Positions 2 through 6,425 of a DNA stretch of 6,425 nucleotides are shown in pieces. Positions within the stretch are counted from its first letter, which is position 1; the number at the start of each line of letters is the position of its first letter. The translations under genes and the position numbers were made by a program. This DNA is from Archangium sp. (GTDB lineage: Bacteria; Myxococcota; Myxococcia; Myxococcales; Myxococcaceae): positions 1 through 6,425 of the forward strand of contig JAEUJR010000405.1 in NCBI GenBank assembly GCA_016793585.1, given 5' to 3'. Under the pieces are notes generated by a model. The model worked only from the letters and a program-made list of their open reading frames with translations. It did no database searches and was not told the origin of the DNA.

Positions 2-103
2 GTCGTCGATGCAGGTTCCGTCGTCGATGCAGGTTCCGTCGTCGATGCGGGCCTCGTGGTCGATGCAGGCTTCGTCGTCGACGCTGGTCTCATGGACGCC
101 GGA
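2..103 (+). repeat. 18-bp tandem repeat encoding a VVDAG(S/L/F) linker
   Basis: Five consecutive 18-base units start at 2, 20, 38, 56 and 74, followed by a partial unit encoding MDAG at 92-103. The first two units are identical and later ones diverge mostly at wobble positions and in the last codon (Ser, Leu or Phe). The array continues to the window edge, so the copy number is unknown. It encodes a hexapeptide linker rich in Asp, Ala, Gly and Val, which probably spaces the propeller from the cell surface. Keeping the repeat in multiples of 18 preserves the frame. Confidence 0.9.
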
Positions 104-1276
104 GCGACCTGCGACGTCACGCCCGTCGGCTGGCCCACCTCGTTCACCCCATGGAGCCGCAACCCGGTCATGCTCCCGGCCACCCAGGCCGCAGTTCACG
201 GCCTCAACAACATCTACGCTCCCGACATCCAGCGCGTGATGGGCCAGTACGTCATGTTCTACGGGGCGCAGGGCGGCGACGGTCACGACCGCATCTTCAT
301 GGCGTGGTCGCGTGATCGTGCCGAGTGGCGCAAGTGGCCCTCCGACACCGCGCCACAAGCCGTGCTCGATCGCGGCACCTCGAACCACGTCAACGATCCC
401 AGCCTCGTCATCGTGAGCAGCGGCTCGTGGGCCATGTATTACACCGACGCCGACGTCGCCGAGAACGACCGCATCTGGCTCGCGCGCAACACCGCCGGCA
501 ACACGAACTCGCTCACCTCGTTCACGAAAGACCGCATGGTGCTCTCGGTCGGCGCGCCCGGCTCGTGGGACGCGGACAAGGTCGGACGCCCGTCGGTGCT
601 CCTGGAGAACGGTGTCTACAAGATGTGGTTCGACGGCCAGCGCAACGGCGCGCGTCACGTCGGCTACGCGACCTCGACCGACGGCATCACCTTCACCAAG
701 CACCCCTCGAACCCCATCGTGCTCAACGCCGGCGCGGTCGACGTGAAGAAGGTCGGCTCGGTGTACGTGATGGTCGCCGAGGGCCGCGACGGCACGTACT
801 GGTACACGAGCCCGGACGGCATCTGCTGGGCGTCAAAGGGGCGCCTCTTCACGATCAGCGGTCAGCCGTACGACGCCTTCGGTCAGGTGACGCCGTTCCT
901 CGAGGTGAACGCGGGCGTGGTGCAGGGCATCTGGTTCGGCGGCGCGAGCGTGACGACGTGGGACCGCAACCGAATCGCTGTCGCGTTCCCGAACACGATG
1001 TCGTTGCCCGCGGGTGGTGGCTGCACGGCGTGCGTCGGCACGGGCCTGTCGTGCCCGAGCGCGTGTTTCTCTGGCGGAGCGAGCAACGGCGTCTGTGGAA
1101 ATCCCGGCAGCACGTCGGTCGGCATGTGCTGCGCGTGCTCCTCCGAGGGCTGCGACCAATGTCGTGGCGGCGGAGCTGACTGCAACGCGCGCTGCATCAG
1201 CCTCGGCAAAGCAGGTGGCTGGTGTGCGTTCCCCGGGAGCACGAACGCGAGCCAGTGCTGCGGCTGCCTCGAGTGA
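2..1276 (+). CDS. Secreted glycosidase-like beta-propeller protein with two C-terminal cysteine-rich modules (5'-truncated)
   Basis: The frame is open to the left edge, so the true start lies upstream. A GTG at 56 is only an internal Val codon of the repeat. Numbering from the codon at position 2, residues 1-34 are a VVDAG-type repeat linker. Residues about 40-335 look like a five-bladed propeller of the GH43/GH32/DUF377 kind, with blade motifs YAPDI (D75), NDPSLV (D132), GRPSV (R196) followed by YKMWFDG, and a late GIWFGGA strand. Residues 341-422 hold 16 cysteines in two repeats. Only two other cysteines are visible (C37, C275). Asp-Ala-Gly linkers in myxobacteria commonly follow a signal peptide or lipobox, so export is inferred but not seen. 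Glycan hydrolysis or binding is likely from the fold, but the substrate cannot be assigned and catalytic acids are unproven. The stop codon lies one base from the stop of the convergent transporter gene. Confidence 0.85.
   Translation, partial: VVDAGSVVDAGSVVDAGLVVDAGFVVDAGLMDAGATCDVTPVGWPTSFTPWSRNPVMLPATQAAVHGLNNIYAPDIQRVMGQYVMFYGAQGGDGHDRIFMAWSRDRAEWRKWPSDTAPQAVLDRGTSNHVNDPSLVIVSSGSWAMYYTDADVAENDRIWLARNTAGNTNSLTSFTKDRMVLSVGAPGSWDADKVGRPSVLLENGVYKMWFDGQRNGARHVGYATSTDGITFTKHPSNPIVLNAGAVDVKKVGSVYVMVAEGRDGTYWYTSPDGICWASKGRLFTISGQPYDAFGQVTPFLEVNAGVVQGIWFGGASVTTWDRNRIAVAFPNTMSLPAGGGCTACVGTGLSCPSACFSGGASNGVCGNPGSTSVGMCCACSSEGCDQCRGGGADCNARCISLGKAGGWCAFPGSTNASQCCGCLE
1022..1138 (+). repeat. Cysteine-rich module 1 (defensin-like, CS-alpha-beta-type spacing)
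   Basis: These 39 codons within the propeller protein have the spacing C-x2-C-x6-C-x3-C-x9-C-x10-C-C-x-C. They contain the C-x3-C, G-x-C (GVC) and C-x-C (CAC) elements that define the cysteine-stabilised alpha-beta fold, plus an internal PGST. Eight cysteines would allow four disulfides. The spacing is read directly; the fold is inferred from it. Confidence 0.7.
1151..1267 (+). repeat. Cysteine-rich module 2 (defensin-like, CS-alpha-beta-type spacing)
   Basis: This is a second 39-codon module, separated from the first by four residues (SSEG), and all eight cysteines sit at identical spacing. The stretch CNARCISLGKAGGWC carries the C-x3-C-x9-C arrangement with Gly two residues before the third Cys, as in insect defensins. 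PGST is also shared with module 1. Away from the cysteines the two copies differ a lot, so the duplication is old and the cysteine framework is under selection. Only Leu-Glu follows before the stop. Confidence 0.7.
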
Positions 1277-1277
1277 T

Positions 1278-2870
1278 TCAGGCCTTCCGGTAGTAGTCCA
1301 CCAGCGTGTAGCGCTTCGCGTACCAGGCGAACGCGGCTGCGGCGGCGAAGGCGAAGCCGGCGAAGAAGAACATCTGAAACGCCATGACGCCGAAGCCCGC
1401 GTCGCCGATCGCCTTCGTCACTGCTTCGTTCTTCACCGTCGCGTTCACCACCAGCACCCAGAGGTTTCCGATGGTGACCGAGAGGCTCCAGAAGCTCATC
1501 AGCACGCCCTTCAACTTCGCCGGTGCCTGGCTGTAGGCGAACTCGAGGCCGGTGGCCGAGACGAGCACTTCTCCGAACGTGAGCAGCGCGTACGGCAACG
1601 CCTGGTACAGCACCGGCAGCTTCTGCCCGCCATCCATCGTCACCTGCAGCATCGCCACGGCGATCCACGCGAGGCCCGAGAACGCGATGCCCGTGCCCAT
1701 GCGGCGCAGTGGCGTGGGCTCGACGCCGACCTTCCGAAGCAGCGGGTAGAGCACCACGTTGTTGAACGGAATCAGCAGCATCACCAGCAGCGGGTTGAGC
1801 GCCTGCATCTGCGCCGCGCTCTTGAACCAGCTCCAGCCCGGCAGCTCCATGGCGTTGCCCTGCAGAATCCACGTCGAGGCCTTCTGATCGAACAGCGACC
1901 AGAACGGTGTCACGAGCGCGAAGATGACCAGCACGCGCAGCACGGCCCGCACGCCATCGACGTCTTCGTCAGGGTGTTTGCCTCGCGCACGATCGATCTG
2001 CAGCCACGCGCCTCCACCCGCGAACACGAGGAACACGACGATCGCAAGACAGACGGCCGGCACGACCCCGAGCCAGATCGCCGTCACGAGCGACGCCACC
2101 GCCCCCACGCCCCCGGCGATCGCGAGTGCCAGGCCCGCGGTGCCGCCCATCACCGCCGTGAGGCACACCGCGCTGAACGAGTGGCGATCCGACGGGGTCG
2201 GCGGAACGTTCACGTACTTCTTTCGCCCCGCCCAGAAGATGACCGTCGCCAGCACCATGAGGATCGCGGGAATGCCGAACGCCAGGCGCGGCAGCGGCGT
2301 GTCGAGCGTGAACAGCACCGCCTCGTTCCAGGTGATCACCGTCGGCTTCGCGGACAACAGCGGAGGGATCAGCAGCGACGCGAAGAACGAGCCGAAGTTG
2401 ATGATCCAATAGAACGCGTCGAACACCACCTTCGCGAGGTGCTTGTTCGTCTGATCGAACTGATCGCCGACGAAGGCCGACACGCACGGCTTGATGCCGC
2501 CCGAGCCGAGCGCGATGAGGAACAGGCCCGCGTAGAACCCGGGCTTGCTCTCGACCGACAGCGCGAGCAGCACCTGGCCGAGGCAGTAGACGATCGAGAG
2601 CCAGAAGATGGTTCGGTACTTCCCGAGGAACCGATCCGACAACCAGCCGCCGAGCAGGGGGAAGAAGTACACGCCCATCACGAAGACGTGGAAGACCTCC
2701 TTCGCGGCGGCCTGGCGCTCGGGCTCGGCGAGGCCGATGAGCAGGTAGCCCACGAGGAAGTTCGTGAGCACGTTGCGCATGCCGTAGAAGCTGAAGCGCT
2801 CGGCCGCCTCGTTTCCGATGATGAAGGGAATCTGTGACGGCAGCTTCGCCTTGGGCGTCTCGTTCGGCAT
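1278..2870 (-). CDS. POT/PTR family proton-coupled oligopeptide transporter
   Basis: This 530-aa inner-membrane protein of the major facilitator superfamily probably imports di- and tripeptides with protons. POT signatures are clear. The ExxERFxxYG motif lies at residues 21-30 (E21, E24, R25; the usual first Tyr is Phe28). The second PTR motif is FYWIINFGS at 153-161. GSGGIKP occurs at 122-128, FWSLFDQ at 323-329, and GE followed by TGLEFAYSQAP at 433-450. Many hydrophobic segments are visible, including an extra pair at about 233-290 that fits the 14-helix layout of bacterial POTs. The length is normal. The ATG at 2870 is supported by a Shine-Dalgarno sequence 8 bases upstream. It lies 20 bases after the kinase gene on the same strand, so it is probably the last gene of that operon. 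Its stop nearly touches the stop of the convergent propeller gene. The family call is firm; substrate range is unknown. Confidence 0.95.
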   Translation of the reverse strand: MPNETPKAKLPSQIPFIIGNEAAERFSFYGMRNVLTNFLVGYLLIGLAEPERQAAAKEVFHVFVMGVYFFPLLGGWLSDRFLGKYRTIFWLSIVYCLGQVLLALSVESKPGFYAGLFLIALGSGGIKPCVSAFVGDQFDQTNKHLAKVVFDAFYWIINFGSFFASLLIPPLLSAKPTVITWNEAVLFTLDTPLPRLAFGIPAILMVLATVIFWAGRKKYVNVPPTPSDRHSFSAVCLTAVMGGTAGLALAIAGGVGAVASLVTAIWLGVVPAVCLAIVVFLVFAGGGAWLQIDRARGKHPDEDVDGVRAVLRVLVIFALVTPFWSLFDQKASTWILQGNAMELPGWSWFKSAAQMQALNPLLVMLLIPFNNVVLYPLLRKVGVEPTPLRRMGTGIAFSGLAWIAVAMLQVTMDGGQKLPVLYQALPYALLTFGEVLVSATGLEFAYSQAPAKLKGVLMSFWSLSVTIGNLWVLVVNATVKNEAVTKAIGDAGFGVMAFQMFFFAGFAFAAAAAFAWYAKRYTLVDYYRKA

Positions 2871-2890: not shown

Positions 2891-4630
2891 TCAGTCTCGA
2901 GACACGCCGAGATCGCGGCCTGACATGCTGCAGCTCTTCGCCGTCGGCGCCGTGGGCTCCATGCGCCCGTTCTCGATCGAGAACGAGCCCACCACGCCGT
3001 GAAAGCCCTCGAGCAGGTTCACACGCGCGCCGTCGCCCAGCGTCTTGGGAATCGCCAGCTTCGTCGTGCCCGACGCGAGCAGGTCGCAGTCTGCGTAGAG
3101 CAGCTGCTCTCCGGTTCGGTCGTCGACGATGGCGTAGAGGTGGAACCCGTCGAGGTTGCCGCCAGCGTGGCTACGCGGCACGCGCCCCTCGATGGTCGAG
3201 AAGCTGCCGCGCCCGTCGCCCACCGTGAACGCGATGATGCGCTCGGAGTCGATGCTCAGCCGCCACGCGACCTCGCCGTCGGCGCTCACGCGCTCCATCA
3301 GCGTCGCGGGCGCGCCCCTCCAGTTGACGGCGTTGAACTGGAGCATCAGCGGCCCGCCCTTCACGGCGAAGTCGGGGTGGTCGGCGAGCGACATGAACGT
3401 GCTCCCGTCCCAGTCGAGGCCGAAGAAGTCGTTGGTGTAGCCGGTGCGGGGAATCTCGATGTCGTGCCCGCGCCCCGACTCGTCGTGCAGGAACGGGCCC
3501 TGGCTGCGGTGAAAGTCCCACGAGCCGCGATGCCAGGGGAACGCGATGTGGCCAGGTGGTTGCGCCTCGGTGGGTCGAACGGGGGGCGCGGCGCGAAGGG
3601 GCGGGCGCTGCGGGGTGACGGCGGCCGAAGTCACCTCGGCCGATCGCGCTGCCGCCTTCACCGCCGCATAGGCGCCGACGCCCGCGGCGATGGCGAGCGC
3701 TCCGCTCACGACGAGGCCGAGCTGGCGCAGGCTGTGCCGGGTGACGGGCGTGGCTGGCACGTCACCGTCGAGGTACGCGAGCGCGCGGTGCGCCGAGGCG
3801 AAGCGATGCTCGGGGCGCACGGCGGTGAGCAGCTTCAAGAAGTCGCGCGTGCGTGGCGTGATGTTCGCCTGCCGCTCGAAGTCGAGCTCGTGGCCCGGCG
3901 TCATCAGCTGATCCGGCGGGCGGCGCGTGAGCAGGTGCACCAGCGTGGCGCCGAGCGCATAGAGATCGCTGCGCGGCTCGACAGAGCCTCCGAGCTGCTC
4001 GGGTGCCATGTAGCCGAACGTTCCGACGAGGGTCGAGCGGTGCGTGCCCTGCGGAGCCACCTCTCGTGCCGCCCCGAGATCGACGAGCTTCAAGAAGCCG
4101 TCGGTCGTCACCACGAGGTTCGCCGGCTTGATGTCGCGGTGCACGACCGGTGGAGAGCGGCTGTGCAGGTACGCCAGCACCTCGAGCACCTGTCGCGCGT
4201 ACACGAGCACCTGCGCCTCGTCATAGCGGGTGAGGCTGAGGTGCCCCGCGAGGCTCGAGCCCGGCACGTACTCCTGAACCAGGTACAGCCGGGTGGCCAC
4301 GCCCTGGCCGATCTTGAACGCGTCACGAAACTTCGGCAGCGCGGGGTGCGAGAGCGTGCGCAGCAGACCCGCTTCGCGATCGAAGGCGTCGAGCTCCTGG
4401 GTCGAGGGCACCAGTGAGAAGACGAGCTCTTTCAACGCGACGCGCGCGCCGCTCGAGTCTTCCGCCAGGTACACCGCGCCGTGCCCCGAGCGCGAGAGCA
4501 CCTGCAGCACGCGATAGCCGCCGGCCTCCTGCACGGCGCCGCAGTAGCCACACCGCTCGTCCTGCACGGGGCTGCTGCAGGCCACGCAGGCCAGCCGCTG
4601 CGCCTGGGGCCGGTGGTGGTCTCGCTCCAT
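2891..4630 (-). CDS. Transmembrane Ser/Thr protein kinase with N-terminal zinc ribbon and C-terminal LamG-like domain
   Basis: This 579-aa Hanks-type kinase is numbered from the ATG at 4630. Residues 15-30 form a zinc ribbon (C15, C18, C27, C30). The kinase domain spans about 38-290 with ATP lysine K67 (VALK), helix-C glutamate E86, the HRDIKPAN catalytic loop (D166, N171), DLG at 184-186 and APE at 209-211. Thr/Ser residues in the loop between DLG and APE are candidate autophosphorylation sites. The glycine loop is degenerate (Ser46 and Ser48 replace glycines; G49 and G51 remain). One membrane helix lies at about 304-324, followed by a Pro-rich linker at 338-360. An extracytoplasmic domain at about 361-555 resembles the concanavalin-like LamG-3 fold (DESGRGHDIEI, then DWDGSTFMSLADHPDF) and ends with C515 and C567. 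It overlaps the upstream gene by one base (TGATG); a GTG at 4633 is a slightly longer alternative start. It probably senses an envelope or extracellular ligand and phosphorylates cytoplasmic targets; ligand and targets are unknown. Confidence 0.92.
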   Translation of the reverse strand: MERDHHRPQAQRLACVACSSPVQDERCGYCGAVQEAGGYRVLQVLSRSGHGAVYLAEDSSGARVALKELVFSLVPSTQELDAFDREAGLLRTLSHPALPKFRDAFKIGQGVATRLYLVQEYVPGSSLAGHLSLTRYDEAQVLVYARQVLEVLAYLHSRSPPVVHRDIKPANLVVTTDGFLKLVDLGAAREVAPQGTHRSTLVGTFGYMAPEQLGGSVEPRSDLYALGATLVHLLTRRPPDQLMTPGHELDFERQANITPRTRDFLKLLTAVRPEHRFASAHRALAYLDGDVPATPVTRHSLRQLGLVVSGALAIAAGVGAYAAVKAAARSAEVTSAAVTPQRPPLRAAPPVRPTEAQPPGHIAFPWHRGSWDFHRSQGPFLHDESGRGHDIEIPRTGYTNDFFGLDWDGSTFMSLADHPDFAVKGGPLMLQFNAVNWRGAPATLMERVSADGEVAWRLSIDSERIIAFTVGDGRGSFSTIEGRVPRSHAGGNLDGFHLYAIVDDRTGEQLLYADCDLLASGTTKLAIPKTLGDGARVNLLEGFHGVVGSFSIENGRMEPTAPTAKSCSMSGRDLGVSRD

Positions 4631-5055
4631 CACTTCTTCGGCTTCTCAGGCTGGCCGCAGTTGGGAAAGCCGGGCAGCTTGCCGTGCGCGGCTCTGTGCA
4701 GCTCGTCGTATTCCTCCCGGCTCAGGCCCCAGCCACCGAGGTGCACCATGGCGACCTCTCCGAAGGTGCCGACCCAGTCGCTCGGCATCGATCGGGGCTC
4801 GAAGGTGATGCCCGGAGGAGGAGGCGGCGGCGTGAGGAAGTAGTACTCACAGCCGATGGGGTGGGCCCTCAGCTTGAGGGCGACGACGTCTTTCGCGAGC
4901 TGCGCCGTGGTGCGCTTCTTCCGCTTCGCGTCCTGCACGAGGCGAAGCGTGCGTTTGTAGTCGGCGCTGCCGCTGGGCAGCTCGAGGTCGGGCGGCGGCA
5001 GATCGGCCAGGGCCTGGGTGGCGGCGAGGAGCAGGGCGAAGAGCAGGGTGCGCAT
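4630..5055 (-). CDS. Exported small protein of unknown function
   Basis: This 141-aa protein is not recognised. It begins with a typical signal peptide: Met-Arg, a hydrophobic core, and a likely type I cleavage after A17 (ALA before DLP). The mature part is about 124 residues with a basic, probably helical stretch (residues 33-65), a run of six prolines at 76-81 followed by Gly, and a tail rich in Lys and Pro. Two cysteines (C69, C133) could form one disulfide; C69 is not at a lipobox position. It is probably periplasmic or secreted. It is the first gene of the minus-strand unit and its TGA overlaps the kinase start, so translation of the two is probably coupled. A ligand, cofactor or accessory role for the kinase sensor domain is possible from position alone. 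No strong Shine-Dalgarno precedes the ATG at 5055. Confidence 0.8.
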   Translation of the reverse strand: MRTLLFALLLAATQALADLPPPDLELPSGSADYKRTLRLVQDAKRKKRTTAQLAKDVVALKLRAHPIGCEYYFLTPPPPPPGITFEPRSMPSDWVGTFGEVAMVHLGGWGLSREEYDELHRAAHGKLPGFPNCGQPEKPKK

Positions 5056-5796: not shown

Positions 5797-6425
5797 TCAC
5801 CCGGCCACGCGCACGCCGACGCGCTGCTTGCGCGCCTTCTCGAGCACGTGCTTCAGGTATTTGCCGGTGTACGAGCCCTTCACCTCGGCCACCTCTTCGG
5901 GCGTGCCCTCGGCGAGAATCTTGCCGCCGCCATCGCCACCTTCGGGCCCGAGATCGATCACCCAGTCGGCCGACTTGATGACGTCGAGGTTGTGCTCGAT
6001 CACCAGCACCGTGTTCCCCGCGTCGACGAGCCGGTTCAGCACGATGAGCAGCTTGCGAATGTCTTCGAAGTGCAGGCCTGTCGTGGGCTCGTCGAGGATG
6101 TAGAGGGTTCTTCCCGTCGCCACCTTCGCGAGCTCGCGCGACAGCTTGATGCGCTGGGCTTCACCACCCGAGAGCGTGGGCGAGGGCTGCCCGAGCTTCA
6201 GGTACGAGAGGCCCACGTCATCGAGCGTCTGAAGGTGCCGCATGATGTCGCGGTGCACCGAGAAGTGCTCGATGGCCTCGCGCACCGACATGTCGAGCAT
6301 CTCCGACACGTTCTTGCCCTTGTACCGCACGCGCAGGGTCGCCTCGTTGAAGCGCTTGCCGCCGCACACCTCGCACGGCACGTACACGTCGGCGAGGAAG
6401 TGCATCTCGACCTTCTTCACGCCGT
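5797..6425 (-). CDS. uvrA: UvrABC excinuclease subunit A, C-terminal fragment
   Basis: UvrA is the damage-recognition ATPase of nucleotide excision repair, acting in the cytoplasm as a dimer that loads UvrB. About 209 C-terminal residues of a roughly 940-aa protein are in the window and the frame runs off the right edge. The GTG at 6420 is an internal Val codon, as the [10 protein letters not shown] context is a conserved internal UvrA segment. Visible are the second half of the large zinc finger (CEVC, followed by GGKRFN), the ABC signature LSGGEAQR (about 6174-6151), Walker [14 protein letters not shown], the switch histidine in VIEHN and the [11 protein letters not shown] block. All ATPase elements of the second cassette seen here are intact. 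The short basic tail after the last conserved block is normal. Confidence 0.98.

Follow-up and report, generated by a model that had tools for sequence, protein, structure and literature searches.

Two eight-cysteine modules with a predicted defensin-type fold behind a glycosidase-like propeller in Archangium sp.

The stretch of DNA analyzed here (the window) comprises 6,425 nucleotides of Archangium sp. (contig JAEUJR010000405.1 of assembly GCA_016793585.1) and begins with an open frame for a fusion protein, in which a glycosidase-like propeller is followed by two cysteine-rich modules. A structural model, together with concordant profile matches, supports a cysteine-stabilized alpha-beta (CS-alpha-beta, defensin) fold for both modules, which are most likely surface binding modules and not antimicrobial peptides. 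The favored reading, that they bind a ligand, probably a glycan, as surface-displayed recognition domains, is given a probability of roughly one half.

Cysteine modules and propeller of the fusion protein

Both 39-residue modules have the spacing C-x2-C-x6-C-x3-C-x9-C-x10-CC-x-C, so that a stretch of 82 residues contains 16 Cys; the original prediction, made from the sequence alone, had counted and placed them exactly. Shuffling the tail 200,000 times produced at least one such module in three cases and two modules in none. The homologue set consisted of the best 120 of 222 relatives. The propeller fusion, anticipated as an unusual architecture, is real but no one-off, since the search pattern found at least one module in 114 of these 120 proteins (115 of 121 with the window protein added). 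At least two modules were present in 103 of the 121, at least three in six and four in one, while P0115–P0120 had the propeller without modules. Exactly the window spacing occurred in 109 of the resulting 225 modules, and G-x-C at Cys5 in 223. The invariance of the Cys in this set is by construction because the extraction pattern required all eight, as it did C-x3-C and C-x-C; G-x-C was not required. In the four closest gene pairs, the ratio of non-synonymous to synonymous substitution rates (dN/dS) was 0.07, 0.16, 0.17 and 0.09 for the modules, compared to 0.08, 0.20, 0.21 and 0.16 for the propeller. The module values of 0.07–0.17 therefore indicate a selected protein feature and, judged by these ratios, the modules are under purifying selection.

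Fold and profile comparisons identify the domain ahead of the modules as a GH43/GH130-type propeller and a putative glycosidase. Pfam PF04616 (GH43) matched it with E = 1.9e-7 and 31.2 bits, below the cut-off of 32.2, which the homologue P0084 cleared with 39.4 bits. Foldseek returned 336 propeller matches at E up to 0.001, with BT_0996 as the best (6.7e-14), followed by GH130, GH117 and GH159 structures; the 50 listed were glycosidase-type propellers by title, which we take to be five-bladed, and had 11–20% identity to the window propeller. The best match of a profile made from the propeller (A1) was 1,2-beta-oligomannan phosphorylase (3.9e-16). Pfam, Foldseek and the profile search, all pointing to the GH43/GH130 type, bear out the predicted attachment to a glycosidase-like propeller. 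Several acidic and basic residues were strongly conserved in the alignment rows, i.e., Asp132 (94 of 94), Arg196 (95 of 95), Asp247 (94 of 95) and Glu260 (93 of 95); Asp75 was found in 65 of 91 rows and Glu at this position in 23.

The propeller is preceded by an Asp-Ala-Gly linker, with a predicted local distance difference test (pLDDT) score below 50 at residues 1–5 and 7–27 in AlphaFold2, and is connected to module 1 by a short Pro/Gly hinge. At the DNA level, the linker is encoded by near-identical repeats (window 2–103). The relatives P0003 and P0004 (77 and 72% identical in the homologue alignment) start with a lipobox-like signal and continue with a HYDIN/ASH immunoglobulin-like domain. 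A pattern search found lipobox-like heads in 50 of the 120 homologues, including a few doubtful ones (e.g., P0023) and four without modules, with 13 of the 120 having no Met start. Because the 5′ end of the window copy lies outside the window, we infer from these relatives that it is exported, probably as a lipid-anchored surface protein.

Predicted fold of the modules

AlphaFold2, run on a 95-sequence alignment of the full-length window protein, gave a model with a pLDDT of 92.0 and a predicted template modeling score (pTM) of 0.90, both modules being above pLDDT 90. The predicted elements are a helix at 351–357 and strands at 362–365 and 377–380 in module 1, and a helix at 394–400 and strands at 405–408 and 420–423 in module 2. 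As the original prediction had expected, the helix over C-x3-C is joined to a G-x-C/C-x-C hairpin in both. The tail modeled alone had a lower confidence than within the full-length model. A Foldseek search with the tail model gave 37 matches to defensins, thionins, scorpion toxins and other peptides, the last of which presumably share the same CS-alpha-beta fold; recognized from their names, all 37 are of the defensin type, in line with the structural search proposed beforehand.

Profile A2, built from 33 diverse modules, was run against the PDB with an E limit of 10 and matched 20 sequences, with a best E of 0.029. These were plectasin and its variants, a defensin-1, scorpion toxins, micasin, heliomicin, ARD1 and eurocin, all of which we take to be of the CS-alpha-beta type. 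A control profile of 20 reversed modules found a single unrelated PDB sequence (E 1.6), and another of 20 column-shuffled modules found none. In Pfam, the 33 modules matched seven families at E up to 10, six of them defensin or scorpion-toxin families and the seventh DUF5560, with the best values for PF24552 (0.0012) and gamma-thionin (0.0019). When 30 of the 33 modules were rescanned, nine matched, only to defensin, gamma-thionin and scorpion-toxin families and all below cut-off. The NCBIfam scan of the modules gave no match, and neither there nor in Pfam (33 modules) did any named Cys-rich domain outside the defensins match strongly. Overall, the predicted fold, the G-x-C and the defensin-type profile matches support the view of the modules as a duplicated eight-Cys version of the CS-alpha-beta fold.

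Distribution, architectures and relation to known peptides

One narrow peptide pattern, run against a collection of 84,980 species, matched 91 stretches, of which seven loci were confirmed; their record titles read Myxococcales, Deltaproteobacteria or uncultured proteobacterium. In the phylum to which one of these loci belongs, apparently Myxococcota, 377 genomes were sampled and 22 had modules at E 0.001; modules were also found at E 0.0001 in 10 of 317, 3 of 52, 7 of 71 and 7 of 57 genomes of four classes, whose samples overlap with the 377-genome sample. These genome counts are lower bounds because not every candidate was scored.

The number of copies per protein varied from 1 to 9, and the search for fusion partners suggested with the original prediction placed the modules also on GH99-like, MopE-type and module-only proteins. 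The longest array, of nine tandem modules, is in the 959-residue frame of locus L063 (241–3117), which has a lipobox-like head and a propeller of a different kind (by eye) with a sub-threshold GH43 match; Cys-rich repeats of the Ala-Gly-Lys-Gln-Cys-Gly type lie ahead of this propeller. L003 (1103 residues) has two propellers, recognized by eye, and six modules. The 802-residue protein of L076 (860–3265) combines a sub-threshold GH99 match with one internal module and a C-terminal stretch which we take to be CBM9-like. One module was present in the 510-residue frame of L075, without a Pfam match at E 0.05, and two in L073 together with a sub-threshold MopE metal-binding motif. Finally, L064 (2353–2979) encodes a lipoprotein-like protein of 208 residues in which two divergent modules are the sole domains recognized by eye, alongside Gln-Asp-Met-Phe-Leu repeats. 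To judge from frames such as L064, the module also exists without this propeller.

Short forms of about 46–153 residues numbered three among the 446 candidates of the profile search. The first is a 71-residue protein whose start falls inside a module, and the second, of 88 residues and near a contig end, has an incomplete first module (compare L065). The third (P0122, 153 residues) resembles at both ends the propeller protein of L024 with the middle missing, a gap that may stem from a deletion or a misassembly. Free short forms are thus rare at that search sensitivity, and all three look incomplete or rearranged. A separate case is P0095 (407 aa, 46% identical, a propeller and two modules behind a plain signal-peptide-like head), whose record, a contig of 91 kb, is assigned to the anaerobic amoeba Pelomyxa schiedti; this would mean that the gene was transferred into a eukaryote or that the sequence is a contamination from a symbiont.

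By both profile and fold, the nearest PDB matches were ancient invertebrate-type and fungal defensins and scorpion toxins. The modules have in common with these CS-alpha-beta peptides (plectasin, micasin, eurocin and the toxins) the C-x3-C helix, the G-x-C in strand 1 and the C-x-C in strand 2, but differ from them in the eight Cys, the C-x2-C start and the CC doublet; moreover, they are not cationic on average and sit inside large exported-type proteins. Where an antimicrobial defensin is a small, secreted, usually cationic peptide, the modules form part of proteins that are several hundred residues long. The window protein shares the propeller fold and a sub-threshold Pfam match with GH43/GH130/GH117 glycosidases and phosphorylases, but differs from them in the low identity to the 50 structures listed (11–20%), the invariant Arg196 and the less conserved Asp75. 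Carbohydrate-binding modules are likewise small, often tandem, appended to carbohydrate-active-type proteins and provided with a conserved aromatic, whereas glycan binding is putative here; we know of no carbohydrate-binding module with a CS-alpha-beta fold.

Among bacteria, actinobacteria and myxobacteria are known to have CS-alpha-beta peptides (PMC8819291, PMC6989792 and PMC11561630, excerpts). The bacterial defensin classes I–V, including the myxobacterial xanthusins, have the same CS-alpha-beta motif and G-x-C core, and class III, from Polyangiaceae, also has a fourth disulfide (PMC11561630, excerpt). As described there, these classes are secreted single peptides, which sets them apart from the window frame of at least 424 residues. 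The survey, in the same excerpt, dropped sequences above 130 or below 30 residues and those without a signal peptide; its length filter thus excluded propeller fusions by design. Among the matches listed in the literature searches, none described a fusion of CS-alpha-beta modules to a glycosidase-like propeller. The fold is known; the eight-Cys modular variant is new and so, as far as the literature was searched, is the architecture.

The other genes of the window are given in Table 1. The N-terminal part of the kinase contains a Cys4 stretch that by eye is zinc-ribbon-like, and its C-terminal region had no match in Pfam. The frame at the window edge is presumably UvrA-like; neither it nor the transporter had a match in the relatives' loci compared for the dN/dS work.

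Table 1. Features of the 6,425-nucleotide window
Feature	Position	Strand	Remarks and basis
Fusion-protein open frame	2..1276	+	424 aa; 5′ end beyond window edge; stop 1274–1276
Asp-Ala-Gly repeat linker, residues 1–34	2..103	+	Sequence; predicted largely disordered
GH43/GH130-like beta-propeller, about residues 45–335	134..1006	+	Pfam PF04616, Foldseek, profile search
CS-alpha-beta-like module 1, residues 341–379	1022..1138	+	Net charge 0; spacing, predicted fold
CS-alpha-beta-like module 2, residues 384–422	1151..1267	+	Net charge +1; spacing, predicted fold, patch
POT-family peptide transporter	1278..2870	-	Pfam
Ser/Thr protein kinase	2891..4633	-	Pfam
Frame cut by window edge	5797..6423	-	Open frame

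Possible role of the modules

Across the 97 two-module proteins, the mean non-Cys identity within a type was 0.44 for module 1 and 0.46 for module 2, compared to 0.36 between the two modules of the same protein. On these sequence comparisons, modules 1 and 2 are distinct, separately conserved types. In module 2, Cys3 is preceded by Asp in 78 of the 97 proteins (module 1 in one) and followed by His, Gln or Asn in 86, and the G-x-C contains Trp, Tyr or Phe in 83 (module 1 in three). The window protein carries this patch as Asp-Cys-Asn and Gly-Trp-Cys.

In the mechanism we propose, a lipid anchor and a flexible Asp-Ala-Gly stalk would present the glycosidase-type propeller at the cell surface, with the two eight-Cys CS-alpha-beta modules extending its C-terminal side. 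They would serve as non-killing recognition or docking domains, comparable to the carbohydrate-binding modules of secreted enzymes. Module 1 would mainly couple the tail to the propeller, while module 2 would use its patch to bind the ligand, most probably a glycan of the prey, the substrate or the matrix, and to keep it near the propeller. This split into coupling and recognition is drawn from the patch and identity statistics of the 97 proteins, and the ligand and the role are what we infer from sequence. Among the three roles originally offered for the modules, adhesion or ligand binding fits best and the antimicrobial warhead is the least supported.

Several observations weigh against this interpretation. 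No defensin match of the modules reached a curated cut-off or a strict E-value, so fold membership rests on several concordant weak lines and the model. Moreover, the real profile of 20 modules matched eight PDB sequences, four CS-alpha-beta peptides and four beta-defensins, a mixed result because beta-defensins have a fold other than CS-alpha-beta. The disulfide pairing is putative; Cys3 would pair with Cys7, Cys4 with Cys8, and one of Cys1/Cys2 with Cys5 and the other with Cys6. The joint absence of one N-terminal Cys and one CC-doublet Cys from module 2 of P0090 fits those two being partners, in a single case. In the canonical framework, as outlined in the excerpt of PMC5234102, C-x3-C pairs with C-x-C and the N-terminal Cys with the first-strand Cys. 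Regarding selection, dN was slightly higher in the modules than in the propeller, as was dS, and the module dN/dS rose up to 0.32 among the more distant pairs shown. Finally, in 18 of the 97 proteins, the protein's own two modules resembled each other more closely than module 1 sequences do on average.

A purely structural role is unlikely, although it explains part of the data: the modules would be a disulfide-hardened C-terminal cap or spacer, shielding the propeller from proteases and holding it further out from the cell, without a ligand of their own. The tandem expansion up to nine copies, the lipoprotein-like heads with stalks, and the high pTM of the full-length model beside the lower confidence of the isolated tail are consistent with it. 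The separate conservation of the two types argues against it, as does the Asp/His-Gln-Asn/aromatic patch kept in module 2, which would be needless for a mere spacer.

Quite improbable is a role of the modules as antimicrobial or toxic warheads that a glycan-binding propeller would deliver and that would act in place or after proteolytic release. Myxobacteria are predators, and the CS-alpha-beta-like fold with its G-x-C core would suit such a function; antibacterial defensins are indeed known in bacteria (PMC8819291, PMC6989792, excerpts). However, the modules are not antimicrobial-like because their net charge (K + R − D − E) has a mean of −0.98 and a median of −1, being positive in only 40 of the 225, purifying selection acts on them, and few short free forms occur. 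Furthermore, according to the excerpt of PMC11561630, the tested myxobacterial CS-alpha-beta peptide xanthusin-1 had no antimicrobial activity.

The most improbable explanation, that the defensin likeness is a coincidence of Cys spacing in an unrelated small disulfide-rich fold pulled toward defensins by AlphaFold and short profiles, is contradicted by the uniformity of the matches (20 of 20 for the PDB profile and 37 of 37 by name in Foldseek), the failure of the reversed and shuffled controls to reproduce them, the confidently predicted helix and hairpin in both modules, and a natural module, the second of P0090, whose last ~30 residues show the bare six-Cys defensin pattern C-x3-C-x3-C-x9-C-x4-C-x-C.

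As known from animals, plants and fungi, defensins are small free peptides with immune or toxin functions, and a myxobacterial origin of the eukaryotic ones has reportedly been proposed (Zhu, 2007). If the modules are indeed surface recognition domains, the defensin fold would have a non-antimicrobial use precisely in the bacteria from which it has been proposed to stem. Their reuse, 1–9 times in large surface-type proteins, opens a sequence set lost to surveys that filter by length. Should module 2 bind glycans, carbohydrate-binding modules would gain a new scaffold. In a tentative and somewhat unlikely wider view, myxobacteria and their uncultured relatives would possess an undescribed mobile family of eight-Cys CS-alpha-beta modules, serving as glycan-binding parts of surface enzymes, from which free defensins, the eukaryotic ones included, could descend.
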